A stretch of 58,787 nucleotides of DNA from positions 1 to 58,787 of the forward strand of contig JAFXTC010000006.1 of assembly GCA_017525235.1 (NCBI GenBank), written 5' to 3'. This stretch comes from Bacteroidaceae bacterium (GTDB lineage Bacteria > Bacteroidota > Bacteroidia > Bacteroidales > Bacteroidaceae). Below the pieces are notes generated by a model. The model searched no databases. It had not been told where the DNA came from and was given only the letters and a program-made list of their open reading frames with translations. The position numbers and the translations under genes were made by a program. Shown piece after piece: positions 2,304 through 52,661 of the stretch. Position 1 is the first letter of the stretch. The number at the start of each line of letters is the position of its first letter.

Positions 2304-2305
2304 AG

Positions 2306-2333
2306 TTAGACTTTAGACCTTAGACTTTGGTCA
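2306..2333. repeat. Heptanucleotide array, TTAGACT type, four units
   Basis: The units are TTAGACT, TTAGACC, TTAGACT and TTGGTCA. They fill the gap between the FMN-binding gene stop (2338) and the aminotransferase start (2303). Confidence 0.85.
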
Positions 2334-2337
2334 AACA

Positions 2338-2724
2338 TTATTTGCTATTCTTGTTATAATAATCACAGCCTGCCTGGACGTTCTTCAAGAGCGCCTTGCT
2401 GGAGATGGTGGCACCTGTTACAGCATCCACTTTAGCTTTGGCGGCCTTCTTGACATCCATTCCCTCCCATTTGGGCAGCATCTCTTTCTTAATCATGGCC
2501 CAGTATTTGGGAGTTTCGGTGTTGCGCAAGGGTTTAACCTTATCTATTTTACCATCCTTGATGTAGATTTTCACGGGTACTACATCGGTATAGCCTTTGA
2601 CATTGGGGCAGAGGGTGGTGGTATTGACAACCACCATACCCTGCTCTTCTGAAATGGGGGTGTCCTGAACAAAACTCATGAGTGTGAGTGCCAGGACGGG
2701 TACAATTAGCAATCTTTTCTTCAT
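2338..2724 (-). CDS. Exported FMN-binding domain protein, likely covalently flavinylated
   Basis: The start is taken at ATG 2724, giving 128 residues, because a signal peptide (MKKRLLIVPVLALTLM) begins there and the upstream extension lies inside the aldo/keto reductase gene. The ATG shares its A with the TAA of that gene, suggesting translational coupling. The C-terminal half is an FMN_bind domain (PF04205), and DAVTGATISS near the end fits the threonine-containing motif that the flavin transferase ApbE modifies in NqrC/RnfG-like proteins. Such proteins carry electrons outside the cytoplasmic membrane. No apbE gene is in the window. The pairing with a Tat-exported Fe-S reductase suggests it is the redox partner of that enzyme; this is an inference. 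Confidence 0.85.
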   Translation of the reverse strand: MKKRLLIVPVLALTLMSFVQDTPISEEQGMVVVNTTTLCPNVKGYTDVVPVKIYIKDGKIDKVKPLRNTETPKYWAMIKKEMLPKWEGMDVKKAAKAKVDAVTGATISSKALLKNVQAGCDYYNKNSK

Positions 2725-4079
2725 TATCTTTTTCTTAATATTTCTGCAATGCGGCCCATCTGGTTGGGTATACGTATGTGCTGCGGACACTTGGGAAGGC
2801 ACGCTTCACAGTCGGTACACTTTGTGGCCCATTGCTTCTTGTTGAGTCCTTTCTGGAACATCTTATTAACAGCATCGAGACGCTTTTGGTAGTCTGGCGA
2901 TGTCTTATCGGGTAACGGTAGCACGTCATCATTAACGGCTTTGTTGTAAACCGAGAAGTTTCCTGGGATATCCAGACCGAAGGCACAAGGCATACAGTAC
3001 TTGCAATCGGTGCAGGGAATCACGGGCACGCCATTCATCTTGTCTGCAATCTTAGCCATGAGAGTATTCTCGCTATCGGTACAGGGGTCGAGTGGTGCAA
3101 AGGTGGCAACGTTCTCCTGCAGAACCTCCATAGTAGTCATGCCAGAAAGAACTGTCAGCACATTGGGATAGGAACCCACCCAACGGAAAGCCCAACGGGC
3201 AGGAGAGTCGGAGGGACGAACTTCCTTCATCATGCTTTGAACGTCTTCCGGTACTCTTGCCAAACGACCACCCAAAAGTGGCTCCATGATAACGCACTGA
3301 ATACCGGCTTTCTCCAACTTGTTATACAGATACTCGGCATCAGTGTTGCCCCTACGAGAGTCGGCATGACGCCAGTCTATGTAGTTCATCTGAATCTGTA
3401 CGAAATCCCACTCGAAATCATCGTTGTTGTCAATCAGATAGTCGAAGGTCTCGATACTCCCGTGGAAGGAGAAGCCCAGGTTGCGGATGCGTCCGGCCTT
3501 GCGTTCCTGCTGAAGGAACTCAACAATGCCGTTTTCCTCGAAGCGAGCCTTAAATTCATCGGGTCCCTTGCCGCCTACGCTGTGCAACAGGTAGTAGTCG
3601 ATATAATCCACTTTCAATTTCTCCATGGAGCTTTGGAGCATCTTTTTGGCACTCTCAAGATTCCATTGGTCGCGACCAAAGTTGGAAAGCTTGGTAGCTA
3701 CGAAGTACTTGTCGCGTGGATGGCGTGAAAGCGCAATGCCTACTGCCTCCTCTGAGCGTCCGCCATGATAGACGGGTGCGGTATCAAAGTAGTTAACACC
3801 ATGGGAAAGTGCATAGTCAACCTCTTGGTTCACCATATCCTGATTAATGGTACGGTTGTTGGACGGAAGTCGCATCATACCATATCCAAGTAGCGAAACT
3901 TTGTCGCCTGTTCTGCGATTTTCACGGATGGCCATCTTGGCGAGGTCTACAGTCTCATCTTCGGGCTTGCCAAAGGTGCTCAGCGGTGCCATAGCCATCA
4001 TTCCTACTGCTGATGCGCCACCCCATCCTAATCTCTTGAGGAATTCGCGGCGACTTCTGTTCTGTTTGTTCTCTGCCAT
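2724..4079 (-). CDS. Tat-exported aldo/keto reductase with two C-terminal Fe-S motifs
   Basis: This 451-residue protein starts with a twin-arginine signal (SRREFLKR at residues 9-16, followed by a hydrophobic alanine/glycine segment). An aldo/keto reductase barrel follows, with the catalytic surroundings DTAPVYHGG and KLSNFGRDQW. At the end are cysteine motifs CTDCKYCMPC from C356 and CTDCEACLPKCP from C421, which would hold Fe-S clusters. Family members of this fused type are widespread in Bacteroidales. Tat export means the protein folds and takes up its cofactors before crossing the membrane. It overlaps the FMN-binding gene by one base, which supports a shared extracytoplasmic redox function. 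The substrate is unknown. Confidence 0.88.
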   Translation of the reverse strand: MAENKQNRSRREFLKRLGWGGASAVGMMAMAPLSTFGKPEDETVDLAKMAIRENRRTGDKVSLLGYGMMRLPSNNRTINQDMVNQEVDYALSHGVNYFDTAPVYHGGRSEEAVGIALSRHPRDKYFVATKLSNFGRDQWNLESAKKMLQSSMEKLKVDYIDYYLLHSVGGKGPDEFKARFEENGIVEFLQQERKAGRIRNLGFSFHGSIETFDYLIDNNDDFEWDFVQIQMNYIDWRHADSRRGNTDAEYLYNKLEKAGIQCVIMEPLLGGRLARVPEDVQSMMKEVRPSDSPARWAFRWVGSYPNVLTVLSGMTTMEVLQENVATFAPLDPCTDSENTLMAKIADKMNGVPVIPCTDCKYCMPCAFGLDIPGNFSVYNKAVNDDVLPLPDKTSPDYQKRLDAVNKMFQKGLNKKQWATKCTDCEACLPKCPQHIRIPNQMGRIAEILRKR

Positions 4080-4105
4080 ACTAGTTCAATAAGTTAATGA
4101 ATGAT

Positions 4106-5101
4106 TTATGATGCTTTTAAAAGTTGTCTGATGTCTTCTATAATGGTGAATAGTTCATCAACCTTCTCTGCTCTGAGCATACGTATGCGTGTCTCGCGAA
4201 AGTTAGGAATACCCTTGAAGATGGGCGTTGCTGCCAAATGCCGACGGATATGCAAGATGCCTCTGTACTCGTCTATTCGCTCAACGGAAGTAAGAACTTG
4301 CTGTTTAAGGATGTCTATCTTTTGGTCAAGAGAGAGCGGTTTCTCTGGATGTGCAATCTCGTGGAAAATCCAAGGACGGCCAAAGGTGGCGCGGCCTATC
4401 ATGACGGCATCCACACCATAGCGGTTGAAGCACTCCTGGGCTCGTTCTGCTGTGGTGATATCTCCATTTCCAATGATGGGTATGTGCATACGTGGGTTCG
4501 CCTTTACGGCACCTATGAGGGTCCAGTCGGCCTCGCCCGTATACATCTGTGCTCGTGTACGGCCATGCAAGGTAAGCGCTTGAATGCCACAATCCTGCAG
4601 ACGTTCTGCCAAATCGACTATGAAAGGCGTACCAGAAGGAAGGTAGAGCGATTTCTCGTCCCAGCCCAAGCGTGTCTTTACTGTAACGGGTGTGTTAGGA
4701 ACCGCATCCACTACGGCGCGAGTAATATCCAAAAGCAAAGGAACATTCTGCAACATACCACTTCCGGCTCCTTTTCTTGCTACCTTCTTGACGGGACATC
4801 CGAAGTTAAGGTCGAGCACATCGGGATGTGCCTGGTCAACGACAATCTTGGCTGCTTCGCGTACAGAGTCAACATCACGACCATATATTTGAATAGCCAC
4901 AGGCCGCTCATCGGGGCAGACCTGCAGTTTCTGAAGACTCTTGTTGACAAGGCGAATGAGAGCGTCGCTTGAAACGAACTCGGAATATACCATAGCAGCT
5001 CCCATCTGCCGACAGAGCAGACGGAAGCCAATGTCTGTGACATCCTCCATGGGTGCCAACAGAACGGGACGTTCCCCAAGATTAACGTTTCCGATGTTCA
5101 A
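4106..5101 (-). CDS. dusB: tRNA-dihydrouridine synthase (DusB-like)
   Basis: The 331-residue FMN enzyme reduces specific uridines of tRNA to dihydrouridine. Seen in sequence: APMEDVTD at 16-23 (FMN-binding start of the barrel), the catalytic cysteine C102 in LNFGCPVKKV, the KTRLGWD segment and HGRTRAQMY, all typical of Dus proteins. The length is normal. It lies between sufE and the aldo/keto reductase, 26 bases from the latter. A heptanucleotide array of the GGTTAGC type sits just upstream of its start codon, where a ribosome-binding site would be expected. Confidence 0.95.
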   Translation of the reverse strand: MNIGNVNLGERPVLLAPMEDVTDIGFRLLCRQMGAAMVYSEFVSSDALIRLVNKSLQKLQVCPDERPVAIQIYGRDVDSVREAAKIVVDQAHPDVLDLNFGCPVKKVARKGAGSGMLQNVPLLLDITRAVVDAVPNTPVTVKTRLGWDEKSLYLPSGTPFIVDLAERLQDCGIQALTLHGRTRAQMYTGEADWTLIGAVKANPRMHIPIIGNGDITTAERAQECFNRYGVDAVMIGRATFGRPWIFHEIAHPEKPLSLDQKIDILKQQVLTSVERIDEYRGILHIRRHLAATPIFKGIPNFRETRIRMLRAEKVDELFTIIEDIRQLLKAS

Positions 5102-5104
5102 AGC

Positions 5105-5126
5105 GGTTAATGGTTAGCGGTTAGCG
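5105..5126. repeat. Heptanucleotide array, GGTTAGC type, three units
   Basis: The units are GGTTAAT, GGTTAGC and GGTTAGC, immediately upstream of the dusB start codon on the minus strand. A second short pair (GTTTAAT, GGTTAAT) lies at 5162-5175 across the stop codon of sufE, so that its last residues INH are encoded by repeat units. Confidence 0.75.
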
Positions 5127-5163
5127 AAACCTTATTAATATGACACCTTTTATCGGTAAAAGT

Positions 5164-5586
5164 TTAATGGTTAATGGATTTAAACGCAAGAGCATAAAGC
5201 TTCATTTGCTTAAGCATAGCCAAGAGGCCATTGCTACGCGTGGGCGAAAGATGCTCGCGCAGACCAATCTTCTCAATGAAGTAGAGGTCGGCATCCAGAA
5301 TCTCCTGTGGTGTGTGGTCACTCAACACCCGAATGAGCAAGGCCACTATACCTTTTACTATAAGGGCATCGCTCTCTGCCTGAAAGTGAAGAAGTCCGTC
5401 TTGCATGTCGGCTTGCAGCCAAACACGACTCTGGCATCCGTCTATCAGGTTTTGTTCCGTCTTGTATTTGTTGTCGAGAGGAGGCTGCTCACTGCCCAAG
5501 TCTATGAGCAACTGGTAGCGATCCATCCAATCGTCGAAGTCGGAAAATTCCTCGATTATCTCGTCTTGTATCTCGTTAATTGTCAT
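5164..5586 (-). CDS. sufE: SufE-family sulfur acceptor protein
   Basis: The 140-residue cytoplasmic protein matches SufE, which takes sulfane sulfur from the cysteine desulfurase SufS and hands it to the SufBCD scaffold for Fe-S cluster assembly. The acceptor cysteine is C51 in IDGCQSRVW, the family signature. The length is normal. Its ATG overlaps the TGA of the M28 peptidase gene as ATGA, so translation is probably coupled. The last codons and stop lie in a short heptanucleotide array. No sufS or sufBCD genes are in the window; the Fe-S aldo/keto reductase two genes downstream is one possible client. Confidence 0.92.
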   Translation of the reverse strand: MTINEIQDEIIEEFSDFDDWMDRYQLLIDLGSEQPPLDNKYKTEQNLIDGCQSRVWLQADMQDGLLHFQAESDALIVKGIVALLIRVLSDHTPQEILDADLYFIEKIGLREHLSPTRSNGLLAMLKQMKLYALAFKSINH

Positions 5587-6575
5587 AGTTCTTCGTTATA
5601 AATAATTTGCGTAAGCGTTTGTCCAACAGCCTCCAACACATTGGGGTCAATATTCTCTGGTGTATCATTAACTGTGTGCCAGGTAGGTCCAAAGCTGCTG
5701 GGGCCGTCTGTGAAGTTCGGCACAATGTCGATGCAAGGTACGCGGGCATAGCGGTTCACGTTTACGTGGTCATCCATCAGGAAACCGCCCTCTTTGTTCA
5801 ATGGGAAATAGTGTCCGTAACCAATCTGGTTTGCTAAACGCCAAACCAGGCTTACTATGGGTTGTGCATATTCCTGGCTGACCTTCTCGGCAGGGAAGAC
5901 GCTGCCTCTGCCACCAACCATATCAAGCAGGATTCCATAACGGGCACAATAATTGTTCTCACGTGATTTTTCTGCCCAGAATTTAGAACCTAAGCACCAT
6001 GTGTGGCTGGTAGATTCTTCTGTCTCAGCCCACTGGGGAGTTCCCATATCTTCGGCATCAAAGCAAACGAAGTCGACCCCAACCTTAACTGGCTTTTGTT
6101 GCAGGAGACGACACAATTCCATCATCATTGCTACACCGCTGGCACCATCATTAGCAGCCAAGATGGGTTTGCGATGGTTCTTTTCGTCTTCGTCGTTATC
6201 GGCCCAGGGACGACTGTCCCAATGGGCACAGAAGAGAATACGGTCGGCATTCTCGGGGTTTACCTTAGCTATAATATTGCAGGCCTGTAGTACCGTACCA
6301 TCCCAAATGGTAACATTGCAGGGTTGCTCTTCAACACTTGCTCCCAAACGCAGGAATTGTTCTACAAGGTACTGACGACATTGGTCTGACTCTTTGGACC
6401 CCGTAACACGGGGACCGAAGTTGCACTGCTCTTGAATGTATTTCATACAAGTGTCGGTGTTGAAAGTAGGACAGGATGCCAAAGCAATGGTATCGGGGCC
6501 TCCAACGTTTCTTTTGGTGTTTCCGCCGCATGCAGAAAGAATACAAGTCAAGACAGCCAATAGAATGTATCTCAT
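5583..6575 (-). CDS. M28-family lipoprotein, glutaminyl-cyclase-like
   Basis: The 330-residue product has a lipoprotein signal peptide ending in the lipobox LSAC (lipidated C16). It then has the M28 zinc fold: FCAHWDSRPWAD with the first metal histidine and aspartate, AANDGASGVA, and FDAEDMG. This order resembles animal and bacterial type glutaminyl-peptide cyclases as much as aminopeptidases. The first would form N-terminal pyroglutamate on exported proteins; in Bacteroidales such cyclization is known to protect periplasmic proteins whose signal peptides end before Gln. The likely location is the periplasmic face of a membrane. It sits between the dipeptidase fusion (15-base gap) and sufE (4-base overlap). 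Confidence 0.85.
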   Translation of the reverse strand: MRYILLAVLTCILSACGGNTKRNVGGPDTIALASCPTFNTDTCMKYIQEQCNFGPRVTGSKESDQCRQYLVEQFLRLGASVEEQPCNVTIWDGTVLQACNIIAKVNPENADRILFCAHWDSRPWADNDEDEKNHRKPILAANDGASGVAMMMELCRLLQQKPVKVGVDFVCFDAEDMGTPQWAETEESTSHTWCLGSKFWAEKSRENNYCARYGILLDMVGGRGSVFPAEKVSQEYAQPIVSLVWRLANQIGYGHYFPLNKEGGFLMDDHVNVNRYARVPCIDIVPNFTDGPSSFGPTWHTVNDTPENIDPNVLEAVGQTLTQIIYNEEL

Positions 6576-6590
6576 AAATTATGTATATGC

Positions 6591-8306: not shown

Positions 8307-8313
8307 ACTGGGT

Positions 8314-8811: not shown

Positions 8812-8842
8812 AACTCATTATTGGTTTGTAATAATTTGATAG

Positions 8843-8850: not shown

Positions 8851-8887
8851 CTACAAATATGTAATTTCTGAAAGAATATGGACAAAA

Positions 8888-8920: not shown

Positions 8921-8937
8921 TGCTTGTTTTATGACGT

Positions 8938-9828: not shown

Positions 9829-9840
9829 TTTGTTTTTTAT

Positions 9841-9868
9841 CAACTCGACAACTTGTCAACTATCAATT
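9841..9868. repeat. Degenerate heptanucleotide-like array between FKBP genes
   Basis: The units CAACTCGA, CAACTTGT, CAACTAT and CAATTAC have lengths 8, 8, 7 and 7, so this is a looser member of the family. It fills most of the gap between two FKBP genes and reaches into the stop codon at 9867. Confidence 0.55.
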
Positions 9869-18706: not shown

Positions 18707-18710
18707 TAAT

Positions 18711-18752
18711 CATTGAATGTTAGACATTGAACATTAGCTAAAGTCTAAAGTC
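18711..18752. repeat. Heptanucleotide array, six mixed units
   Basis: The units are CATTGAA, TGTTAGA, CATTGAA, CATTAGC, TAAAGTC and TAAAGTC. Two unit types meet in one array. It occupies the gap between the DUF2723 gene stop (18756) and the deacetylase start (18706). Confidence 0.85.
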
Positions 18753-22678: not shown

Positions 22679-23604
22679 AAATTAAAATAAGCCATTGTGC
22701 CGCATAGCAGCAGTGATAGAATAAAGAACGCGTTGCTCAACCAACTTTTTGTCAGAGAGAAGTAGTGGGCTATAAGCGGACAGGCGCTAACCACCAGCAA
22801 CGCCATTGTATTCTGGAACTTTTGGGGCTGCAGGAAGAGATATAAGATGAGTAGAAGGGCCTGTACTGTATAGATATAAAGAATCATTCTGACCCGAATC
22901 TTATCGTTATACTTGGTTTGCAGATAGTGAATCAAAGCCACCATACTCAGCAAGATAATCACTCCGGCAGAAACCTTCCAGGCAATAGAAAAATTCAGTA
23001 GAAGATGCCATGAAATAGGACTCCACACAAAATGCGAGTTGATAAAGTCCAACAAGTTCTCTGTATCATCTGTCATAAAGCACCATACAGCCCAGCACCA
23101 GTAAGGAATGATAATTCCCAATATACCTGCCCAGAAACCTCGCCAAGTAAGAGATCGAAGGAATCCTATAAGGTAGACATAAAAAAGTAGCCCCATGAAT
23201 AAGAAAACATTATCAAACAAACTGCCAATTCCTAGGAAAAGGAAACAGTGGAAAATCCAAATGGCAGGATTGTACAACTGATAGCAGCGAAACAGCAGGT
23301 AGTAGCTCATGGTCAGACAGGCAGCACTGACGGAGGGTGCTCCCAATGGGTGTAGGAATGCCAAGCTGGAGGCGAGTACAAGCCAGACACATGCCATCAT
23401 TCTAGAGCGGATACGAATGATGTGCTGTATACTGTTTGTTTCCATACAGATATAGGTGGTAAATGCGCAAACAGCCCATCCTGCGATGTTGTTAAAGTCG
23501 AATGCCTGCTGGGGCCACCACCACAAAATGGTTGCCAGTATCGCACAGACGGGCAGTGTGCCTACACTCTCTGCTACTTTATTCTGAAACCGTTTTTGTC
23601 TCAA
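22666..23604 (-). CDS. Polytopic membrane protein of unknown function, TTG start
   Basis: The 312-residue protein has roughly nine to ten hydrophobic segments (for example VCAILATILWWWP, LVLASSLAFLHP, LLFYVYLIGFL, FFILSLLLCGTMAYF) and no soluble domain that I recognise. The only start is TTG at 23604, because TGA lies in frame two codons upstream. That TTG is part of the first unit of a CAATGTT heptanucleotide array that fills the whole gap to purD. It is probably translated with purD and yqaA. A function cannot be assigned from sequence; tight packing with purD is its only context. Confidence 0.75.
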   Translation of the reverse strand: MRQKRFQNKVAESVGTLPVCAILATILWWWPQQAFDFNNIAGWAVCAFTTYICMETNSIQHIIRIRSRMMACVWLVLASSLAFLHPLGAPSVSAACLTMSYYLLFRCYQLYNPAIWIFHCFLFLGIGSLFDNVFLFMGLLFYVYLIGFLRSLTWRGFWAGILGIIIPYWCWAVWCFMTDDTENLLDFINSHFVWSPISWHLLLNFSIAWKVSAGVIILLSMVALIHYLQTKYNDKIRVRMILYIYTVQALLLILYLFLQPQKFQNTMALLVVSACPLIAHYFSLTKSWLSNAFFILSLLLCGTMAYFNLWMI

Positions 23605-23629
23605 TGTTCAATGCTCAATGTTCAGTGAA
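23602..23629. repeat. Heptanucleotide array, CAATGTT type, four units, contains a start codon
   Basis: The units are CAATGTT, CAATGCT, CAATGTT and CAGTGAA. The array spans from the purD stop (23631) to the TTG start codon of the next gene (23604), so the start codon is itself repeat sequence. Confidence 0.85.
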
Positions 23630-28390: not shown

Positions 28391-28425
28391 AACTTTCAAC
28401 TTTCAACTATCAACTTTCAACTCTA
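28391..28425. repeat. Heptanucleotide array, AACTTTC type, five units
   Basis: The units are AACTTTC, AACTTTC, AACTATC, AACTTTC and AACTCTA. They fill 28391-28425 exactly, that is every base but one between the start codon of the methyltransferase (28389) and the stop codon of cysE (28426). Confidence 0.92.
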
Positions 28426-30756: not shown

Positions 30757-30791
30757 TGAAAATGAAGAGTGAAGAATGAAGAGTGAAAAAT
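30757..30791. repeat. Heptanucleotide array, GAAGAGT type
   Basis: The units are TGAAAAT, GAAGAGT, GAAGAAT, GAAGAGT and GAAAAAT, starting at the base next to the DUF5009 start codon and covering most of the gap to the U32 stop at 30807. Confidence 0.88.
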
Positions 30792-34815: not shown

Positions 34816-37542
<2,727 letters not shown>

Positions 37543-41773: not shown

Positions 41774-41808
41774 AATTGTCAATTATCAATTATCAATTTT
41801 CAATTATT
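41774..41808. repeat. Heptanucleotide array, AATTATC type, five units
   Basis: The units are AATTGTC, AATTATC, AATTATC, AATTTTC and AATTATT. The array starts at the base next to the kinase ATG (41773) and includes the araA stop codon (41804-41806) in its last unit. Confidence 0.92.
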
Positions 41809-43336
41809 TCAGCGCCTTGTTCAGCATGAAATATACCTCGTTGTTGCGGAGGGTCTGTTTGAAGTCGGCAATGTTGGTTTGCTTGTTAATCTTCACATAC
41901 TCAATGCCTGTCATTTCTGCAAAGTCCTCCCAATACTCCTCGTTAATGTCGTAAGAGAAAGCACTATGGTGTGTACCACCCGCCAAAATCCATGCTGCTG
42001 CACCAATCTCGAACGTAGGCTGAGGAATCCACAGAGCGCTGGCTACGGGTAGCTTGGGCATGGGTTTTGGTTCGATGCACTCAACTTCCTGACTAATCAG
42101 ACGGAAGCGGTTGCCCAGGTCGACAACGGTTGCCTTGATGCCACGACCGGTCTTGGAGGTGAAAACCAGACGGGCTGTCTGCTGCTTGCGGATACCAATA
42201 CCAAGGAAGTGAACCTCCAGCTTTGGCTTATCAGAAGCAATAAGTGGACAAATCTCCAACATGTGGCTCTGCAAGCAAGAACTACGGTCGCCAGCGAAGT
42301 TCAACGTGTAGTCTTCCAGGAACGAGCAGCCTGTTGGCATTCCCTGCTGGATAACCCAGAGGGTACGATAGAGACAAGCAGTCTTCCAGTCACCCTCGGC
42401 GCCAAAACCATATCCTTCCTGCATCAGACGTTGAGAGGCTAAGCCAGGAATCTGGTCGAAGCCACAGAAATCAGGAGCATCTATGTTAGCATCACCCAGG
42501 TCGTCGAAGTTGGTGGTGAAGGCAGTAGCACCCTCATCCTTCAGCACACGGCGCAAGGCAATCTCAGCCTTGGCAGAGTTCTTAACCTTCTCCCAATAAA
42601 CCTGCTCGCCACTTTCATCAATCTTAATGGTATAGAGTTTCTTGTACTCCTCGACAAGGGCATCTGCCTCAGCATCTGTTACCTTTTTGTAGTACTCCAT
42701 CAAAGAAGATACAGGATAGTAGTCTACATGATAGCCCAAACGCTGCTCAAACTCCACACGGTCGCCATCGGTAACAGCTACATTGTTCATGTTCATACCA
42801 AACATCAGGCAACGAACATTCTTGGCATCAGCCACGCCGGCAGCAACACGAGCCCAAACGGCAATCTGCTTCTGAGCCTTCTCGTCCTTCCAATAGCCGC
42901 AAACCACCTTACGGGCTACACGCATACGAGTGCAGATATGTCCGAATTCTATATCACCATGAGCACTTTGGTTCAGGTTCATAAAATCCATATCGATGTC
43001 TGCCCAGGGAATCTCGGCGTTGTACTGGGTATGGAAATGAAGCAGAGGCTTCTGCAACTGCTGCAATCCCTTAATCCACATCTTAGCTGGTGAGAAAGTA
43101 TGCATCCATGTGATGATACCTGCGCACTTCTCATCGTTGTTGGCAGCTAACATTACAGCCTCTACCTCCTTAGAACTATTTGCCGTGCCCTTATAAACAA
43201 TCTTTACAGGGATGTTGCCAGAGGCGTTCAGCCCTTCAACCATCTCCTTGCTGTGTCCGTCTACAGCCACAACGGCATCGCCTCCATAAAGGAGCTGTGC
43301 TCCGGTCACCCACCAAATCTCTAAATTTTCAAACAT
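41804..43336 (-). CDS. araA: L-arabinose isomerase
   Basis: The 510-residue enzyme converts L-arabinose to L-ribulose in the cytoplasm. It begins with the typical LEIWWVTGAQLLYGGDAV and has GIITWMHTFSPAKMWI, the metal-ligand region with FGAEGDWKTA, and a C-terminal ILAGGTHHSAFS with the conserved histidines. The length is normal. In the cluster it lies between the small four-helix-bundle gene (113-base gap) and the kinase (gap filled by heptamers). I see no separate promoter that I trust in the 113-base gap, so it is probably read from the araD promoter. Confidence 0.97.
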   Translation of the reverse strand: MFENLEIWWVTGAQLLYGGDAVVAVDGHSKEMVEGLNASGNIPVKIVYKGTANSSKEVEAVMLAANNDEKCAGIITWMHTFSPAKMWIKGLQQLQKPLLHFHTQYNAEIPWADIDMDFMNLNQSAHGDIEFGHICTRMRVARKVVCGYWKDEKAQKQIAVWARVAAGVADAKNVRCLMFGMNMNNVAVTDGDRVEFEQRLGYHVDYYPVSSLMEYYKKVTDAEADALVEEYKKLYTIKIDESGEQVYWEKVKNSAKAEIALRRVLKDEGATAFTTNFDDLGDANIDAPDFCGFDQIPGLASQRLMQEGYGFGAEGDWKTACLYRTLWVIQQGMPTGCSFLEDYTLNFAGDRSSCLQSHMLEICPLIASDKPKLEVHFLGIGIRKQQTARLVFTSKTGRGIKATVVDLGNRFRLISQEVECIEPKPMPKLPVASALWIPQPTFEIGAAAWILAGGTHHSAFSYDINEEYWEDFAEMTGIEYVKINKQTNIADFKQTLRNNEVYFMLNKALK

Positions 43337-43350
43337 AGTTTTAAAATTTT

Positions 43351-43382
43351 AATTGATAATTGATAATTGACAATTGATAATT
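43351..43382. repeat. Heptanucleotide array, AATTGAT type, four units
   Basis: The units are AATTGAT, AATTGAT, AATTGAC and AATTGAT plus AATT. The plus-strand sequence here is the reverse complement type of the arrays at 41774 and 43813, so this array is inverted relative to its neighbours. It ends about 14 bases upstream of the araA start. Confidence 0.9.
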
Positions 43383-43449
43383 AAGCCAACACATTGCTTG
43401 GCCGATTCCAATTGCCAGCTATCTCATATCGTGGTTAATGATAAGTATT

Positions 43450-43812
43450 TTAGTTAATATTATTTTCTTTTGTTGATTTGACAATTGAAACTAATAGTTT
43501 TGTAAGATCTCGACAATCTTTTATAATGCTTTTATATTCCTCGTCATTGAGATAACCTGTTCGATGAAGTAATCTTATCCAATAATCACTTTCTGATGAT
43601 TCTTTTAGCGAGATATTCATCTTTGAAAGAAAGTCCGATGTACTTTGGGCTTGTTCTGCCTCACAGATGTTTGCTCCAATGCTTGTGCCAGAGCGAAGTA
43701 ACTGCTTGGACATTATATGCTCTTGTTTGGATGTTGTTAAATGTTTGTAGAGATTTACAATTCTCACAGAGAACTCGAAACTCTTTTCCTTAACCACATT
43801 ATCATCCTTCAT
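43450..43812 (-). CDS. Four-helix-bundle protein (S23/intervening-sequence-protein family)
   Basis: The start is ATG 43812 (120 residues). The sequence shows the family pattern: KSFEFSVRIVNLYKHL, then LRSGTSIGANICEAEQAQS, SESDYWIRLLHRTGYL and a final helix. The family was named after proteins encoded in 23S rRNA intervening sequences, but in Bacteroidetes copies occur as single genes in many places. The function is unknown. It is odd inside an arabinose operon. It is bracketed by AATTATC arrays on both sides, as if the gene had been inserted together with or between them. Confidence 0.85.
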   Translation of the reverse strand: MKDDNVVKEKSFEFSVRIVNLYKHLTTSKQEHIMSKQLLRSGTSIGANICEAEQAQSTSDFLSKMNISLKESSESDYWIRLLHRTGYLNDEEYKSIIKDCRDLTKLLVSIVKSTKENNIN

Positions 43813-43840
43813 AATTATCAATTATCAATTGTCAATTATC
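43813..43840. repeat. Heptanucleotide array, AATTATC type, four units
   Basis: The units are AATTATC, AATTATC, AATTGTC and AATTATC, starting at the base next to the four-helix-bundle gene ATG. It is followed within 3 bases by the 43-nt palindrome. Confidence 0.92.
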
Positions 43841-43843
43841 CAT

Positions 43844-43886
43844 TAATGCATACTATGGTCAACGTCGTTGACCATAGTATGCATTA
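43844..43886. repeat. 43-nt perfect palindrome spanning the araD stop codon
   Basis: Two 21-base arms, starting TAATGCATACTATGGTCAAC and ending in its exact complement, are separated by one base. The right arm encodes the last araD residues (NAYYGQRR) and the left arm lies past the stop. No T-run follows on the minus strand, so a standard terminator is not obvious; it could be an mRNA-stabilising hairpin or attenuator within the operon. Confidence 0.9.
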
Positions 43887-44557
43887 GGACCGTGTTTGCG
43901 GGAGAAGTGTTTCTCAACTAGCAAGGGATTCATAGTCAAATTGGGATTCACGGAGAAAGCCACGAAGGCCATTTTGGCAACCTGCTCCATAACAACCGCG
44001 TTATAAACGGCATTGTCTGCATCCTTTCCCCATGAAAAAGGACCATGATTCTTAACCAAAACTCCAGGGGTATGAACCACATTTATTCTGTCTTTCTTGA
44101 AACGCTCCACAATCACGTTTCCTGTTTCTAACTCGTATTGTCCCTTCACTTCGGTCTCTGTCATATCACGGGTACATGGTATGGCATCGTGGAAATAATC
44201 AGCATGTGTAGTACCGATATTGGGAATGTCCTTTCCTGCCTGTGCCCAGGCTGTGGCATAGGTGCTATGGGTATGAACAACGCCTCCTATCTCAGGGAAA
44301 GCCCTATATAATGTAAGGTGTGTGGGCGTATCTGATGATGGGTTCAGGTCGCCTTCTACAACCTTACCTGAAGCAAGGTCCACCACAACCATATCCTCGG
44401 CTTTCATGTCATCATAACTAACGCCCGATGGTTTAATTACCACTAATCCTTTCTCACGGTCTATTCCTGACACGTTTCCCCAAGTGAAAATCACAAGGTT
44501 ATGTTTCACCAAATCTAAGTTGGCACGGAATACTTTTTCTTTAAGTGTCTCTAACAT
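43859..44557 (-). CDS. araD: L-ribulose-5-phosphate 4-epimerase
   Basis: The 232-residue enzyme converts L-ribulose-5-phosphate to D-xylulose-5-phosphate. It belongs to the class II aldolase/AraD family: [20 protein letters not shown], then [25 protein letters not shown] with the metal histidines, and [13 protein letters not shown]. The C-terminus HGPNAYYGQ is typical. It is the first gene of the arabinose cluster; a TATCTTTG box lies 24 bases upstream. The last nine codons form one arm of a perfect palindrome. Confidence 0.97.
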
Positions 44558-47387: not shown

Positions 47388-47394
47388 AGTCCTC

Positions 47395-47436
47395 AATTTT
47401 CAACTCTCAATTTTCAACTTTCAACTTTCAACTTAC
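47395..47436. repeat. Heptanucleotide array, AACTTTC/AATTTTC type, six units
   Basis: The units are AATTTTC, AACTCTC, AATTTTC, AACTTTC, AACTTTC and AACTTAC. The last unit contains the GH20 stop codon (47433-47435). The array covers nearly the whole gap to the next start codon. Confidence 0.92.
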
Positions 47437-49130
47437 TCTACTTCATTACAATAAACCAGCCCCATTTTGTCGTAGAGCTTCTTTAGCTGCGGCAGTCGAG
47501 CCTTAAAGTTCTCAAAGTCCTTCTGTTCGGGGTTACACCACTGCACCTCGCTCATAGCACCCAAGCGGGGTAGCAACTGATAGAGGGCGTGTTCAGGATA
47601 AGCCACCTGCTCGGTCCATAGGTTGCCCTGATAACCCAGAATGCAGTCGCTTTGTTCCTTAGTCAGTTCATCAGGAACAAGGGGCTCAAAGGAGTATATC
47701 TTGCTGCAGGAAACTATGTAGCTGTCCGTAGTACGAGGCTGTTTGCCATAATCCTTCAGCTGGGGATGGTCTAAGTAGGCAAATACGTTGGGGCTCATAA
47801 TAACCCTGTGGTTTAGCTTGGCAGCTGCAACGCCGCCCTTGGTTCCGCGCCAAGACATCACGATGGCGTCTTCTGTTAGACCGCCAGCCAGAATCTCGTC
47901 CCAACCAATCAGGCTACGCCCCTTTGAAGCCAGGAACTGCTCAATCTCGTGGTTGATATACGACTGAAGCTTATTTTCGGCACTCCTGCCATCTTGACTT
48001 CCTCTGCCATCGCTGCCCTCAACCTGAACATTCTCGGCAGTCAAGCCCAGTTCCTTAATCTTAGCCTGACACTTGGCGCACTTCTGCCAACGCTCCTTGG
48101 GGCACTCGTCACCACCTATATGGATGTACGGAGAGGGGAATACGTCGCACAACTCGCCAAAGACGGTCTTCAGGAAGTCCAAGGTCTGAGGGTTGCCGCC
48201 ACAAAGCACTTCACGCATCACACCCCAATGAGGAGCAACAGGGTAGGGGCCGCCCGTACAACCTAGGTTGGGGAATACGTGCAGAGCACTCTGCATGTGG
48301 CCGGGCATATCAATCTCAGGAACCACGTTGATATAACGTTCAGCAGCGTACTTTACAATATCGCGACATTCTTCTTGCGTATAGTAGCCACCATAAGGGA
48401 TGTTGTCGTAGATGCGCATCCTGCTGGGACCGATAACGGTCTTCTCGCGCACACTACCCTTTTTAGCCAAGTCGGGTAGCGCCTTTACCTCGAAGCGCCA
48501 ACCTTGATCCTCTGTCAGATGCCAATGGAATTGGTTGCATCCGTGCAAAGCCATAGCATCAAGGAACTGCTTGATAAACTCGACGCTGAAGAAATGACGA
48601 CCGCAATCCAACAGCACACCACGATATGTGAAGCGTGGTTGGTCGGTAATCTGCACGTAGGGTAGTTCTACACTTTTGCCTTTGGCTATTGGCAGGCTTT
48701 TACGCAACGTTTGGGCAGCGCGGAACAGTCCTGCGGGTTCGTATGCACTAATCAGAACACCCTCCTTGTTCACCGTAAGTGTGTAGCTTTCCTTCTGCTG
48801 TTCTGTCAACTCTACGGGTTGCTTGCTCTTCTTGCCTTTCTTGGCCAGGACAATCAAAGACAGACAGATGGGAGCCTTTTTGTCAGCAGCTGTCAGTTGC
48901 AATTCAACGCCAGTAGCCTGCTTCACCCATTCCTGTAAGAACTGGGCAACACGAATGTTTTCGGCGTCGCTTTCATCGTAGGCAATGCCCATGCCGTTCG
49001 CAAGGGTAAAGAACTGGGTCGTGTCCACCTTTACCTCTTTTGGAAGAGGGATAATGTTGTAATTGGCACGTTGGGCTGAGGCGGAAAAGGCCAAAATGCA
49101 TGCTAGAAGGAGTAATCCAAGTTGTTTCAT
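47433..49130 (-). CDS. Beta-N-acetylhexosaminidase, GH20
   Basis: The 565-residue protein has a signal peptide (MKQLGLLLLACILAFSASAQ), an N-terminal GH20b alpha/beta domain (about 25-160) and the catalytic barrel with RGVLLDCGRHFF, WHLTEDQGWR and the catalytic pair in HIGGDECPKERW. GH20 enzymes remove terminal GlcNAc or GalNAc from host glycans or chitin fragments. A short insertion (about residue 375: GSDGRGSQDGRSAE) after LTAENVQ is low-complexity. A full promoter TTTG-N20-TACTTTTG lies upstream, so GH20 probably heads the two-gene operon. Confidence 0.95.
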   Translation of the reverse strand: MKQLGLLLLACILAFSASAQRANYNIIPLPKEVKVDTTQFFTLANGMGIAYDESDAENIRVAQFLQEWVKQATGVELQLTAADKKAPICLSLIVLAKKGKKSKQPVELTEQQKESYTLTVNKEGVLISAYEPAGLFRAAQTLRKSLPIAKGKSVELPYVQITDQPRFTYRGVLLDCGRHFFSVEFIKQFLDAMALHGCNQFHWHLTEDQGWRFEVKALPDLAKKGSVREKTVIGPSRMRIYDNIPYGGYYTQEECRDIVKYAAERYINVVPEIDMPGHMQSALHVFPNLGCTGGPYPVAPHWGVMREVLCGGNPQTLDFLKTVFGELCDVFPSPYIHIGGDECPKERWQKCAKCQAKIKELGLTAENVQVEGSDGRGSQDGRSAENKLQSYINHEIEQFLASKGRSLIGWDEILAGGLTEDAIVMSWRGTKGGVAAAKLNHRVIMSPNVFAYLDHPQLKDYGKQPRTTDSYIVSCSKIYSFEPLVPDELTKEQSDCILGYQGNLWTEQVAYPEHALYQLLPRLGAMSEVQWCNPEQKDFENFKARLPQLKKLYDKMGLVYCNEVE

Positions 49131-49168
49131 AAGGCTATAAAGGTTTTAAATTTGTTTATTTTGAGCTA

Positions 49169-49200
49169 CAAAAGTAATAAGAAATGAGTGATTATCCAAA
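49169..49200 (-). promoter_or_regulatory. Complete Bacteroidetes promoter for the GH20-esterase operon
   Basis: On the minus strand TTTG (49197-49200) is followed by 20 bases and TACTTTTG (49169-49176). The GH20 ATG begins 39 bases downstream of the -7 box. Confidence 0.7.
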
Positions 49201-49302
49201 ATTAATATGAGAAAAAAACGAAAGAAAGTCATTTCGAAGAAAAATCAAGAAGAGAAGAAGAAAGTTATTTCGATGACAGAAATTTAAGTTAGGAATTTTT
49301 AC

Positions 49303-49310
49303 TACCTTTG
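49303..49310 (+). promoter_or_regulatory. Probable -7 box for the CAT-like gene
   Basis: The plus strand reads TACCTTTG, 23 bases upstream of the ATG. A clear -33 element is not seen. The preceding bases are purine-rich (GAAGAAA-type) without a hairpin. Confidence 0.6.
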
Positions 49311-49332
49311 CAAATAAAACTGAGAATAAAAG

Positions 49333-49953
49333 ATGAAACACGAAATCGATCCCAAAGAAACAAGTCGGGCATACGCTTTCGAGATGTGGATGAGAGCACC
49401 AATGCCGATGGTGACATTCTTCAAAACGCTAGACGTAGCAAGACTCGTAAGGGTCAGTAAGCAAACAAGAATGAAGTTTAATATGCTGATGTGCTACTGT
49501 ATCGGCAAAGCAGCAAACGGTATCAAGGAGTTTTATCTGTTGCCCGAAGGTGACAAGTTGATGCAATTCGATAGCATTGCCGTGAACACCATCGTTGCAA
49601 ACAAAGAGGGCGAAGTCAGTTCGTGCGATATTCCTTTCTGCGAAGATGTGTTTGCCTTCAACCAAGATTACCTTCAACTCACAAAGCAAGTAGCTGAGAC
49701 TTGCACCAATCATGACTTGCCTGACAGTATGGTCATCGGCACATCAGCTTTGGTGCAGTACAACATTGATGGTGCAGTAGGCATGTATAGCGGCATCTTT
49801 AACAATCCTTTCCTCATTTGGGGCAAGTACAAACGATGCTTCTTCAAGACAACACTCACCGTTTCCTTTCAGTTCCATCACACGCAAATGGATGGAGCAC
49901 ACGCCGCTCGTTTCCTTGATGAGTTGCAAAAGACAATCAACACATTAAAATGA
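49333..49953 (+). CDS. Chloramphenicol acetyltransferase-like protein (CatA family)
   Basis: The 206-residue protein matches the trimeric CAT fold. It has the catalytic HHTQMDG near residue 179, VSFQFHH before it, and the N-terminal FEMWMRAPMPMVTFFKTLDVA instead of the classical start. True CatA enzymes acetylate chloramphenicol with acetyl-CoA, and Bacteroidetes carry many such homologues whose substrate is not known. Length (about 210-220 in CatA) is normal. It stands alone behind its own promoter. Resistance should not be assumed from this sequence alone. Confidence 0.85.
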   Translation: MKHEIDPKETSRAYAFEMWMRAPMPMVTFFKTLDVARLVRVSKQTRMKFNMLMCYCIGKAANGIKEFYLLPEGDKLMQFDSIAVNTIVANKEGEVSSCDIPFCEDVFAFNQDYLQLTKQVAETCTNHDLPDSMVIGTSALVQYNIDGAVGMYSGIFNNPFLIWGKYKRCFFKTTLTVSFQFHHTQMDGAHAARFLDELQKTINTLK

Positions 49954-50013
49954 GAATCCTTACGAATTCTGTCTTCGCGAAGGTTTCAAAGATAGTATGT
50001 AAATCAATTAGAT

Positions 50014-51441
50014 ATGAAACGTTTATTCATTATTTGCGCTTTGATGGCCTTTCCCGCTATGCGGATGATGGCCGCGGTAGACCCCAATTTCTACATTTAC
50101 ATCTGTTTTGGACAGTCGAACATGGAGGGCAATGCACAACCCGAGGCTATAGACAAGACTGGCATTGACAAGCGTTTCCGCCTGTTGGCTACCTGTAAGT
50201 TTGATAGTCCATCGCGCAACATGGGAGCTTGGTACAAGGCTACGCCACCATTGGTAAGTCCGAATGGCGGACTTGGTCCCACTGACTATTTCGGTCGCAT
50301 GATGTGCGAGAGCTTGCCCGACAGCATCCGCATCGGCGTCATCCCTGTGGCTATGGGTGGCAGTCCTATAGAGATGTTCGACAAGGACACGTATGAGCAG
50401 AAAATGAGTCAGAATCCGGACGAATGGTGGGCCATCTTGGCACGGAACCACTATGGTGGCAATCCCTATGGCCGCATTATTGAGATGGCGAAAAAGGCCC
50501 AAAAGGTAGGTGTCATCAAGGGCATCCTGCTGCATCAGGGTTGCTCAAACAATGGCGACCCGAACTGGCCCACTATGGTGAAGAAAATCTATAACGACAT
50601 GCTGACAGACTTGGGCCTAGGTACGGACACGGTGCCCCTGTTTGTCGGCGAGACGCTGCGTCAGGATCAGGGCGGTGCCTGCTATGGTCATAACACACAG
50701 GTGGCACGTATGCCCAGTGTCGTCAAGAACAGCTATGTCGTCAGTAGCGAAGGCTGCCCGGGCAATGGCACAGACCCCTGGCATTTCAACGCATTCGGCT
50801 ATCGCAAACTGGGTGCCCGCTATGCCGGCGAGGCATTGTACACCCTGAAGCAGCACCTGCCATATTTCTCGTTCCACGACTACATGTTTTCGCTGAATGC
50901 CAATGCCACCTATGATGAGGCCACTCGCACGTTGACGGCGAAGTATACGGGAGTGGGGCAGGGCATCTGGACTTATCCGCACTTGGCCGATTGGTCAGAC
51001 TACAAGTATCTTGTCATCAAGCTGAAGGAACCGGCAGACCCTGCAGCCGATGTAAATATCTACAAGAAGAGCGGCATTGGCTGTCGTGAGACTTTTAACG
51101 ACCGCACGACGATAGTCATTGATGTTCACAACGCAAAATACAACTCTTCAACCCTGAATCCCGCTCAGGTATCAAAGGTGGTATTCCGTTGTCCGAAGGG
51201 TACCAAGATTGTTTTTGACGACGTCTTCCTTTCCAACGACGAGCAATACAACCCAGACCCCACTTCCATTCGCAGCGCTGAATCAATTCAAAATTCAGAA
51301 TTAAATACTCAAAATGGTGCTGACGCTGTCTATGACCTCAATGGCCGCTGCATAGCTAATTCTCAATTTTCAACTTTCAATTCTCAATTTAAGAAGCGGG
51401 GTCTCTATATCATTAATGGCAAAAAGATGATCGTGAAGTAA
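50014..51441 (+). CDS. Exported SASA-type carbohydrate esterase with C-terminal sorting-like motif
   Basis: The 475-residue protein has a signal peptide (MKRLFIICALMAFPAM) and a SASA/DUF303 esterase domain: nucleophile in CFGQSNMEGN, VAMGGSPIEMF, LLHQGCSNNGD and the catalytic D-x-x-H in TDPWHFN. Members remove acetyl groups from sialic acids or from xylan (CE6). A beta-rich domain follows (about 285-410) and the end carries YDLNGR...KRGLYIINGKKMIVK. Two heptanucleotide arrays are translated near the end: one encodes SIQNSELNTQN, the other NSQFSTFNSQF in the middle of the C-terminal motif. It lies 60 bases after the CAT-like gene. Confidence 0.87.
   Translation: MKRLFIICALMAFPAMRMMAAVDPNFYIYICFGQSNMEGNAQPEAIDKTGIDKRFRLLATCKFDSPSRNMGAWYKATPPLVSPNGGLGPTDYFGRMMCESLPDSIRIGVIPVAMGGSPIEMFDKDTYEQKMSQNPDEWWAILARNHYGGNPYGRIIEMAKKAQKVGVIKGILLHQGCSNNGDPNWPTMVKKIYNDMLTDLGLGTDTVPLFVGETLRQDQGGACYGHNTQVARMPSVVKNSYVVSSEGCPGNGTDPWHFNAFGYRKLGARYAGEALYTLKQHLPYFSFHDYMFSLNANATYDEATRTLTAKYTGVGQGIWTYPHLADWSDYKYLVIKLKEPADPAADVNIYKKSGIGCRETFNDRTTIVIDVHNAKYNSSTLNPAQVSKVVFRCPKGTKIVFDDVFLSNDEQYNPDPTSIRSAESIQNSELNTQNGADAVYDLNGRCIANSQFSTFNSQFKKRGLYIINGKKMIVK
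51283..51315. repeat. Heptanucleotide array, ATTCAGA type, translated
   Basis: Units near ATTCAAA, ATTCAGA, ATTAAAT and ACTCAAA encode a spacer (SIQNSELNTQN) just before the C-terminal YDLNGR motif. It is the most degenerate of the coding arrays. Confidence 0.65.
51358..51391. repeat. Heptanucleotide array, AATTCTC/AACTTTC type, translated
   Basis: The units are AATTCTC, AATTTTC, AACTTTC, AATTCTC and AATTTAA. They encode NSQFSTFNSQF between the two conserved halves of the C-terminal motif of the SASA esterase. Confidence 0.9.
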
Positions 51442-51506
51442 AATAACATCTCTTCGTCTTCGGCAGCAACCTGAAGGGTATGCGCGGCGGTTGGGGCATA
51501 CACAAA

Positions 51507-52661
51507 TTAAAAAGAGCCCACCTTCACTTCTTTAATTTTTGTCGCATCTTTCATGCGGAAATTCAGGATGGTGTCAGCGGACTGGATGTTACGACGGATA
51601 GGGACATAGCCTAAATGTCGAACATTCAATTGGGTGACGGTACGGGGTGCCCACATCACGAAATGTCCCGTGCTGTCTGTTGCTGTTCCCATTTCCCATG
51701 TATCGCAACTAACCCAGGCATTGGCCAGCGGCAGGCTGTCTTCACTCTGCACAAAACCTTCAATGCGGCGACGGTTGAGCATCTTCTCCGGGTGTTGCCG
51801 CATGTATGCTTCACCCAGCGTGTCGGAAACATACTGGATGGTACCGTTAATGATTACAACGATTGAATCGCTGCGACGTATACTATCCGAACCTGCAAGT
51901 CGCATGGAACGGTCTGAGCCTAAGTCTGCGGAGGTTGGGACGATATCAAGCCCTGCAATGGGCCTCTGCAATGCTTCTTGACCATTGAAGATGACGGGCA
52001 CCGCCCATCTTTGCTCTACGAGTTTACCGAACTGCTTCGCAGGTGTCCATCTCGGCATCTGACTGAGCACGCGTATGGCCTCCTCTTTCAGCTGCTCTGA
52101 GAGTTGCTCGCGCAGTTGCTCCTTCGGCTCATCGGGCATGGAAGTTAGAAGGGGAGAATCGCAAACGAAACGGTTTCGCGCTACTCTGAAATCACTGGTC
52201 TGTCCCAACGTATCAACCATAAATGTCACGATGACACGTCCGCGTGCGCCACAGTCGATGGCCAGTTTGGGACAAACAAAGAGACTGTCAATGAATGCTT
52301 TCAGCGCCTTATCGCCTCCAGGGAAGCGAGCCGAGATTTCGTCACAATCGTACACGATGGGCTCTGCGATGCTTGGCGTTGTTGGAACGGACTTTTGAGA
52401 GGTGAGAGGTGTGGGGTGAGAGGTAAGAGGTTGCTCTTCCACAAGTTGCGCCACCAAAGGCTGGTCTTCCGAGTTCTCTTTACCCATGTTGAACACAAAA
52501 AGCAATGCGATAGTAGCAGCAATGCCAATACCACCTGTCCATGCTGCTACACGCAGCACCCTTGGCTTAGTGTCCTTGGCGATGACCTCACGTTCAAACC
52601 GTGCCCACTCAGCATCCACGTCGGGCATACCTATTCTCTTGTCGATATCTTCTCTTTTCAT
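51507..52661 (-). CDS. Single-pass protein with TonB-type and CarboxypepD-reg-like domains, putative sigma-factor partner
   Basis: The start is ATG 52661 (384 residues), one base after the sigma gene stop. The N-terminal about 40 residues are cytoplasmic and charged, and one membrane helix follows (AAWTGGIGIAATIALLFVF, about 43-61). Then come a repeat-encoded linker (EEQPLTSHPTPLTSQK), a TonB C-terminal-like domain (RFPGGDKALKAFI, GRVIVTFMVDTLGQ, MPRWTPAKQFGK) and a C-terminal carboxypeptidase-regulatory-like beta domain (FVQSEDSLPLANAWV, LGYVPIRRN). The position of an anti-sigma factor is taken by a TonB-domain protein without a recognisable anti-sigma fold, so it may link an envelope signal to sigma activity. 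Confidence 0.8.
   Translation of the reverse strand: MKREDIDKRIGMPDVDAEWARFEREVIAKDTKPRVLRVAAWTGGIGIAATIALLFVFNMGKENSEDQPLVAQLVEEQPLTSHPTPLTSQKSVPTTPSIAEPIVYDCDEISARFPGGDKALKAFIDSLFVCPKLAIDCGARGRVIVTFMVDTLGQTSDFRVARNRFVCDSPLLTSMPDEPKEQLREQLSEQLKEEAIRVLSQMPRWTPAKQFGKLVEQRWAVPVIFNGQEALQRPIAGLDIVPTSADLGSDRSMRLAGSDSIRRSDSIVVIINGTIQYVSDTLGEAYMRQHPEKMLNRRRIEGFVQSEDSLPLANAWVSCDTWEMGTATDSTGHFVMWAPRTVTQLNVRHLGYVPIRRNIQSADTILNFRMKDATKIKEVKVGSF
52397..52431. repeat. Heptanucleotide array, GAGAGGT type, five units, translated
   Basis: The units are GAGAGGT, GAGAGGT, GTGGGGT, GAGAGGT and AAGAGGT. On the coding strand they give PLTSHPTPLTSQ, a proline/threonine linker between the membrane helix and the TonB-type domain. 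Confidence 0.9.

Follow-up and report, generated by a model that had tools for sequence, protein, structure and literature searches.

The question raised by this locus is why the gaps between the genes of a bacterial contig should be filled by tandem arrays of 7-bp units that differ in sequence from one array to the next. The window, by which we mean the whole stretch of DNA analysed, is the entire contig JAFXTC010000006.1 (58,787 nt; C42 in our numbering) of a Bacteroidaceae metagenome-assembled genome (MAG; GCA_017525235.1) of 2.6 Mb that is 72.7% complete and whose nearest named relatives are rumen Bacteroidaceae and Prevotellaceae MAGs. To our knowledge, heptad repeats in bacterial gaps have been known for decades and their origin has not been agreed upon; the short tandemly repeated repetitive (STRR) heptads of cyanobacteria were reportedly treated by Mazel et al. 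in 1990. We propose, with a probability of roughly 0.56, that the heptad arrays are the arms of intercistronic elements carrying a gene of the S23/IVP family, which would be the operon counterpart of the intervening sequences (IVSs) of rRNA genes and would probably include derivatives without an open reading frame (ORF). The tie between S23 elements and complementary tandem arms is well supported by sequence comparison, and the evidence that solo arrays, found apart from an S23 gene, are part of the same system is suggestive.

The element of the window is located between an aldolase gene and araA (Table 1). The small gene in its centre matches PF05635 (23S rRNA IVP) with 96.6 bits and TIGR02436 with 108.4 bits over 43450-43821, and its product matches PDB entry 2rld (E 5.7e-43), which contains five chains, as does the second solved relative, 2gsc (XCC0516), presumably from Xanthomonas. 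An earlier interpretation of the window made from its letters alone, hereafter the sequence-only reading, had listed arrays at 43351 and 43813 as separate and had missed the inverted pairing around S23/IVP genes: the arrays at 43350-43382 and 43813-43845 are reverse complements and constitute a single pair flanking this small gene. Their inverted flank score of 26.5 ranks first among the 71 copies compared below, and the RNA fold predicted for the element has the two arms paired with each other. The genome contains seven PF05635 matches, four of them over the cut-off and one of these four with internal stops; the copy on contig C52, between what we take to be GDP-mannose dehydratase and GDP-fucose synthase genes, has the same inverted layout with another unit. 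The two loci L121 and L122 of this genome (L and G numbers are our labels for loci and genomes, G000 being the window's own genome), together with many low-scoring matches, are ORFs of ~200-270 aa with a short partial PF05635 match, often over positions 30-74, which apparently belong to another protein family. The left arm adjoins a palindrome that was found, among 123 loci searched, only at the window's own locus. In the relative G223 (L332), three base changes in one arm are all mirrored in the other; they lie in aldolase codons, where they are synonymous by frame reading, and recur in the non-coding copy. These mirrored changes may hint at how arms stay complementary, and would fit either hairpin-templated copying or selection on structure.

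The inverted layout is a general feature of S23 genes in the genus. The 200 nt upstream of each S23 ORF were aligned in inverted orientation with the 200 nt downstream, mismatched pairs serving as the null; from 74 S23 ORFs, mostly the top-scoring profile matches, three were dropped for a cut ORF or flank. The median score was 23.5 for the 71 true pairs against 8.0 for mismatched pairs, with 62 above the 95th and 38 above the 99th percentile, the latter being exceeded by only 2 of 332 ordinary genes of the window's genome and, in direct orientation, by 4 of the 71 S23 flanks. The unit sequences differ between copies, while the arms within one copy match. Predicted folds, computed for 24 of the 71 loci, gave a median of 42.5 arm pairs, compared with 14.2 when the flanks were shuffled. 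Protein genes, as predicted by our own caller, lie at most 700 nt away on both sides in 67 of the 71 loci, and the S23 gene is co-directional with both neighbours in 66 of the 67 loci where both were called. Rfam gave no match in the window, nor in the 20 of the 74 S23 loci submitted. In two loci, the right arms are tandemly repeated as larger units of ~40-47 nt (L166, 1861-2021; L170, 1891-1964). Across the phylum, PF05635 passes the cut-off in 113 of 148 genomes, the largest number of matches in a single genome being 16, and in a phylum set of 30 loci from 30 genomes the inverted score exceeded the 95th percentile in 17 and the 99th in 14. A search with the S23 protein of the window returned 25 plasmid records, 20 of them cyanobacterial, and also Bernardetia, Treponema, Monoglobus and Chlorohelix. 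Inverted flanks above the 95th percentile were found in 13 of 16 plasmid loci from several phyla, and 9 of 12 cyanobacterial plasmid loci have period-7 arrays on both sides as well; the likeness to cyanobacterial STRRs suggested by the sequence-only reading is thus borne out in that heptad arrays flank the same gene family there. On cyanobacterial and Monoglobus plasmids, S23/IVP genes also stand in cas2/cas1 junctions, next to cas1, or in HsdS/HsdR junctions (L425, L427, L434, L420); IVP is named among CRISPR-linked proteins in a figure legend of PMC10910872 (sources with PMC numbers are cited from their available parts).

The second line of evidence concerns the period and the length of the arrays. 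The repeat period goes with the S23 protein lineage: one S23 clade has 7 or 14 as its best period in 36 of 40 copies, the ten copies of another have a period of 8 to 13 or a weak one, and on the S23 tree of 67 copies with a clear period the distinction between 7 and other periods requires 4 changes, against a shuffled mean of 14.4 with none of 500 shuffles as low. The length classes 21-27, 28-34 and 35-41 nt contain 39, 66 and 17 arrays in S23-positive stretches and 16, 24 and 3 in blind or unselected stretches. The predominance of 28-34 nt over 21-27 nt is also found in 80 named loci (74 vs 47), in S23 arms (47 vs 15) and in cyanobacterial plasmid loci (16 vs 6). The typical array of 32-34 nt corresponds to five cores and four spacers, i.e. 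about five units, as in AATT(GAYAATT)x4 of the window's genome and TAATT(CGTAATT)x4 of Nostoc. The analysis supports the idea that one length rule is shared by arrays of differing units; that these are independent amplifications is doubtful, because their lengths peak at 28-34 nt instead of declining steadily.

The third line of evidence is obtained from junctions that can be followed between species. The operon junctions occupied by S23 elements have almost no gap in most relatives, and arms lacking an ORF are present at some of them. Nine operon junctions are common to at least two species and hold 28 of the 71 copies. Copies at the same site cluster on the S23 tree (9 label changes against a shuffled mean of 20.1), yet the clade of the etf junction also contains copies unassigned to that site, which suggests that the elements have been both inherited and moved. 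Within a site, the left and right arms of the same copy reach a median score of 24.0 (n = 29), compared with 14.0 for arms combined across species (n = 78). The etf/acyl-CoA dehydrogenase junction, whose gene names we take from reading the loci, was given for 30 of the 50 genomes with a match: 7 of the 30 contain an S23 element of 485-536 nt, 18 have a gap of 0-11 nt, and 5 contain other inserts, one of which is an arm pair without an S23 match. At the aldolase/araA junction, given for 30 of 43 genomes with a match, 5 of the 30 carry an S23 element, with arms of AATTGAY, AATGGAC or AATTCAC, and the gap is 20-57 nt in 8 (G222, G008, G224, G227, G017, G013, G031, G034). At this junction G010 has kept two arms and G019 a right arm, in both cases with no S23 match there; G231 has a right-arm-like array at araA, in a locus without the aldolase. 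The following gap, between araA and a kinase gene, measures 1-3 nt in ten genomes (1 nt in G222, G223, G008 and G224); in G000 and G226 a solo array of 30 nt fills it, and in G015 (L204) it contains a whole S23 element. As the contents of these three junctions show, some sites are used by solo arrays as well as by S23 elements. Array presence and unit also vary between species at other gaps of the window: the gap of the 28391 array contains in relatives other heptads, an inverted arm pair that is too short to contain an ORF (L044), or 0-3 nt, and that of the 30757 array has other content in L037, L038 and L043. A second kind of insert, whose inverted ends are C-rich and G-rich (CCCCTCTCCC...GGGAGAGGGG type), is present in other species at these same operon junctions, namely at the etf junction (L398, L401, L402), in the 30757 gap (L043) and at araA (several of L333-L355).

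The sharing of junctions and of related units, as at araA/kinase with its solo array in G000 and G226 and its S23 element in G015, could also be read in the opposite direction, the arrays having come first as host features on which S23 elements land. Insertion between direct units would, however, leave direct and not inverted flanks, and the etf junction, where it lacks the element, most often has a gap of 0-11 nt (18/30). We consider this order of events quite improbable, and return to the proposal that the arrays are arms of the elements.

It can be hypothesised that the S23 operon element works like the IVS of 23S rRNA, with which it shares its architecture. In the IVS, the S23 ORF is located between complementary ends and RNase III cuts the stem (PMC4990558); in Coxiella burnetii, the S23/IVP ORF lies in the loop of such a stem within a transcribed unit, and the IVS measures 428 nt, close to the 485-536 nt of the seven etf-junction elements (PMC4990558). 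The operon element consists of a left arm of about five short tandem units, the S23 ORF, a right arm with the same units reverse-complemented, a short leader and the next start codon. It differs in its position between protein genes, in its arms, which are tandem arrays of about five units with a sequence that varies per copy, and in its presence in several copies per genome; as it lies outside the rRNA gene, it is not a 23S rRNA IVS by membership. By analogy with the latter, the arms would form a stem in the operon mRNA that walls off the S23 ORF and may be cut by RNase III. Such a stem would insulate or release the S23 RNA, whereby the operon would tolerate the insert, and an A-rich stretch before the next start (e.g. 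in G005, G027 and G013) may restore translation. Solo arrays would be arms that persist once the ORF is gone, or insertions that the same system made without an ORF. Because the crystal entries contain five chains each, a homopentamer is cited in PMC4990558 and the arrays have a mode of five units, we further propose that each subunit of a homopentameric S23 ring may contact a single repeat, an arrangement that would account for the constant spacing, the number of copies (five) and the lack of constraint on sequence.

The distribution of arrays relative to genes bears on a different kind of explanation, namely that they are regulatory or translational leaders, either recognised by S1, cold-shock or Csr-type proteins or standing in for a ribosome-binding site. 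The latter role, as unstructured leaders, had been put forward by the sequence-only reading on the ground that all arrays precede minus-strand starts, and the arrays at 41774 and 43813 do abut start codons; most TAACTGA repeats of one genome also lie just upstream of starts (MacGregor 2015, PMC4679880). The position of arrays with period 7-9, S23 arms included, was recorded with a simple gene caller in 11 S23-positive genomes of the genus. This census yielded 133 arrays, of which 105 lie between two called genes, 24 lie mostly inside called genes and 4 could not be placed. Per kb of non-array sequence, convergent gaps (1.25) are about as array-rich as co-directional ones (1.39), the density in divergent gaps being 0.85. 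A TAACTGA-style placement was not found, since only 11 of the 76 arrays in co-directional gaps end within 5 nt of the downstream start, with 22 ending equally close to the upstream stop; when the co-directional gap is wide, the start is nearer for 22 arrays and the stop for 29. The strand facing the mRNA is purine-rich in 42 and pyrimidine-rich in 34. The uniform placement before minus-strand starts thus reflects the gene orientation of the window and fails across the genus, and arrays that are equally near stops, in all gap types, on either strand and partly inside genes are not start-codon leaders. Related species moreover lack arrays at the same genes, and we regard any leader function as the origin of the arrays as very improbable. 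A spacer that stops translation, by a period that is not a multiple of three and a TGA or TAA in the unit, was likewise rejected as a general rule: 42 of the 76 arrays have stops in all three mRNA-strand frames, and 13 have none there, with all three on the complement.

Within the window, a plain period-7 detector identified 16 segments, against a mean of 1.25 and a maximum of 5 in 20 second-order Markov resamples, so that the excess over shuffled sequence is real; with a stricter cut, 6 segments stand against 0.0 in 10 resamples. The other periods from 4 to 13 gave 1-6 segments each, with smaller excesses at period 12 (6 vs 0.65, maximum 3) and period 6 (4 vs 1.3, maximum 3). In 451 kb of the same genome, composed of the window and 20 stretches many of which were picked around earlier array matches, 48 arrays have period 7, the count for any other period between 4 and 13 being 0-10; a blind 43-kb sample contains 6 of period 7. 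The units include AATTGAY, AGTTGAA and GGTTAGC, among others. Ten of the eleven arrays claimed by the sequence-only reading were recovered (2306, 5105, 18711, 23602, 28391, 30757, 41774, 43351, 43813 and 47395), that at 18711 for its 18738-18752 portion, the period-7 detector having missed the remainder; the eleventh, at 9841, is no heptad array, and Tandem Repeats Finder (TRF) gives it period 8. The array said to comprise five exact units at 28391-28425 has three AACTTTC and two variants. Six more segments are found within ORFs (20895, 35123, 36586, 51285, 51358 and 52396), of which 36586-36619 is the most perfect array of the window. A heptad array is also present at 2561-2576 of L117, inside the ORF downstream of its S23 gene.

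Table 1. Coordinates of the S23/IVP element and of the heptad arrays in the window (strands relative to the contig; empty cells, nothing recorded).
Feature	Position	Strand	Remark
Whole S23/IVP intercistronic element, aldolase/araA junction	43337..43858	-	522 nt, stop of 43859-44557 to start of 41804-43336
S23/IVP (four helix bundle) gene, ATG 43812-43810	43450..43812	-	PF05635 E 1.3e-27
Left arm, GATAATT/GACAATT array, upstream of S23 in mRNA, abuts ATG	43813..43845	-	
Right arm, complementary heptad array between S23 stop and araA start	43350..43382	-	
Palindrome with 21-bp arms, aldolase gene end and its inverted copy, adjoins left arm	43844..43886	.	
Solo array AATTGAY (mRNA strand), fills araA/carbohydrate kinase gap	41774..41805	-	gap 30 nt here
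Solo array GAAAGTT, gap upstream of THUMP methyltransferase gene	28391..28422	-	period-7 detector
Solo array AAGTTGA, six units	47393..47434	-	TRF and period-7 detector
Solo array TGAAGAG (+ strand reading)	30763..30787	-	TRF and period-7 detector
Solo array TCAATGT	23601..23624	-	TRF and period-7 detector
Compound array, CATTGAA-type then CTAAAGT x2	18711..18752	-	TRF and period-7 detector
Short solo array GGTTAGC, unit recurs elsewhere in genome	5105..5126	-	period-7 detector
Short solo array TTAGACT	2306..2325	-	TRF and period-7 detector
Perfect array AGTTGAG x4.9, in open rhamnosidase frame near border of two domains	36586..36619	-	
Array of AATTTTC type, near 3' end of SASA esterase ORF	51358..51389	+	
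Array TGAGAGG within ORF 51507-52673	52396..52431	-	TRF and period-7 detector

Whether solo arrays depend on S23 was approached through their density, counted with the exclusion of arrays near S23 genes. In 539 kb from nine genomes without a strong S23 match there are 5 period-7 arrays, G064 accounting for three. The blind sample, taken from the first 20 kb of contigs 1, 5 and 10 of seven S23-positive genomes, contains 24 in 319 kb, 23 of which are not near an S23 gene, and the per-genome comparison of the seven with the nine gives p = 0.042. The five S23-negative genomes on the RlmL tree require five changes and are therefore scattered. Of 176 solo arrays, 27 have a unit identical to one in the S23 arms of their own genome, an enrichment over the 11.6 predicted by comparison with other genomes. 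The simple view that solo arrays are exact copies of current S23 arms was rejected, and most of them, given that only 27 of 176 share a unit, need another or an older source. A rival explanation is polymerase slippage: replication would favour period 7, solo arrays would be microsatellites arising independently wherever a gap tolerates them, and only the S23 pairs would belong to elements. Slippage is reported as an idea for heptads in PMC4692102. The differing units, the presence of arrays in every gap type, the scarcity of units common to solo arrays and sampled S23 arms and the varying density among S23-positive genomes are all compatible with it. It is at odds with the length peak at 28-34 nt, with the tracking of S23 clades by the period, with the use of the same junctions by solo arrays and S23 elements and with the low count (5 in 539 kb) in genomes lacking a strong S23 match, and it is in our view unlikely.

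Several observations weigh against the proposal that heptad arrays are arms of S23 elements. In the window, only 2 of the 16 period-7 segments flank an S23 gene, and for 149 of the 176 solo arrays no identical unit is present in the S23 arms sampled from the same genome. When five earlier-sampled positive genomes are added to the density comparison, solo arrays are absent from 6 of the 12 positives and p rises to 0.19, which is not significant; an earlier value of p = 0.016 relied in part on stretches picked because their contigs had S23 or array matches, and G002 falls from 15 per 100 kb in chosen stretches to 0 in the blind sample. G064 (L272-L274) is rich in arrays of periods 7 and 9 and has no strong S23 match, owing to an incomplete assembly, to a lost S23 gene or to its being an exception to the link. 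As regards the flanks, the 95th percentile is not exceeded by 9 of the 71 copies from the genus and 13 of the 30 from the phylum, the direct match is better than the inverted one at L158, L160, L213 and L232 in the genus and at L422, L427, L428 and L434 on plasmids, and in 3 of 24 folds the arms pair no better than shuffled ones. Because close relatives share units, the two arms of a copy match each other better than any other arm at the site in only 16 of 29 cases. A strict co-direction of S23 with the operon, true in the genus (66/67), fails on plasmids, where the S23 gene runs against both neighbours in 4 of 16 loci and against one in 3, so that sense orientation is not required everywhere. 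Finally, the RNA processing, the binding and the mobility of the S23 element are steps that we infer, and the pentamer idea is drawn by analogy from chain counts and a cited structure. The link of solo arrays to S23 is thus graded as suggestive, since the per-genome density test is weak and the sampled arms include no current parent for most solo arrays.

An enzyme of another family could be thought to move the arrays, as REPIN- or MITE-like repeats (palindromic or miniature inverted-repeat elements) mobilised by a RAYT (Y1) transposase or by a reverse transcriptase of the type found in diversity-generating retroelements (DGRs). One Y1_Tnp match is present in G000, and S23 is described, in the part of the source available, as a homologue resembling the DGR protein Avd. 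Y1_Tnp is nevertheless over the cut-off in only 11 of 41 genomes and gives none in G001, which has arrays in both samples. RVT_1 is found in 13 of the 41, the 28 without a match including G001 and the window's own genome (72.7% complete), a count to be read with the incompleteness of MAGs in mind. Neither enzyme tracks the arrays across the 41 genomes, and either as the mobility enzyme was rejected; we give this explanation almost no credence.

Heptads described elsewhere resemble the present arrays in different respects. Cyanobacterial STRRs are 7-bp tandem units, intergenic, hairpin-capable and found at many loci; the available part of PMC2670836 describes no tie to S23 genes, whereas STRR-like arrays flank such genes on Nostoc, Aulosira and Dolichospermum plasmids, and the arrays here belong to Bacteroidota and have many unit types. 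The GGGAATC/GGGGAYT heptads of Xanthomonas and Nostoc are mostly intergenic, most often have four units and frequently form inverted pairs (Rehm et al. 2015, PMC4692102), and XCC0516 is a solved S23 protein; they differ in having one G-rich unit type per lineage, read as G-quadruplexes, and the term S23 is absent from the main text of that paper as available (PMC4692102). TAACTGA repeats of Beggiatoaceae, cyanobacteria and five Bacteroidetes are likewise intergenic and sporadic, in some of the same phyla, with 7-nt indels between strains, but consist of a single unit seen as translation-regulator sites (MacGregor 2015, PMC4679880), in contrast to the many unit families here, among which TAACTGA is not listed. 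It is tempting, if tentative and rather doubtful, to surmise that all of these reflect a class of selfish operon elements whose ends are defined by period and copy number instead of sequence, in which a pentameric S23 would read five repeats, hairpin-templated copying would keep the arms complementary, and STRR, TAACTGA and GGGAATC arrays would be arms or scars, in Bacteroidota, Cyanobacteria, Spirochaetes, Clostridia and others. In a search of the open-access literature, which is no proof of absence, no paper was found that connects heptad arrays with S23/IVP genes or describes S23 elements inside operons of protein genes.

The structures of S23/IVP proteins have been solved, and their function is described as unknown (PMC4990558). 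If the proposal is true, a shared element would join two puzzles, that of the heptad repeats and that of the S23/IVP proteins. S23 would gain a candidate ligand, five repeats on a five-fold ring, and a reason would be offered for the dominance of period 7. Many operons would then hold a tolerated insert that may split their mRNA.

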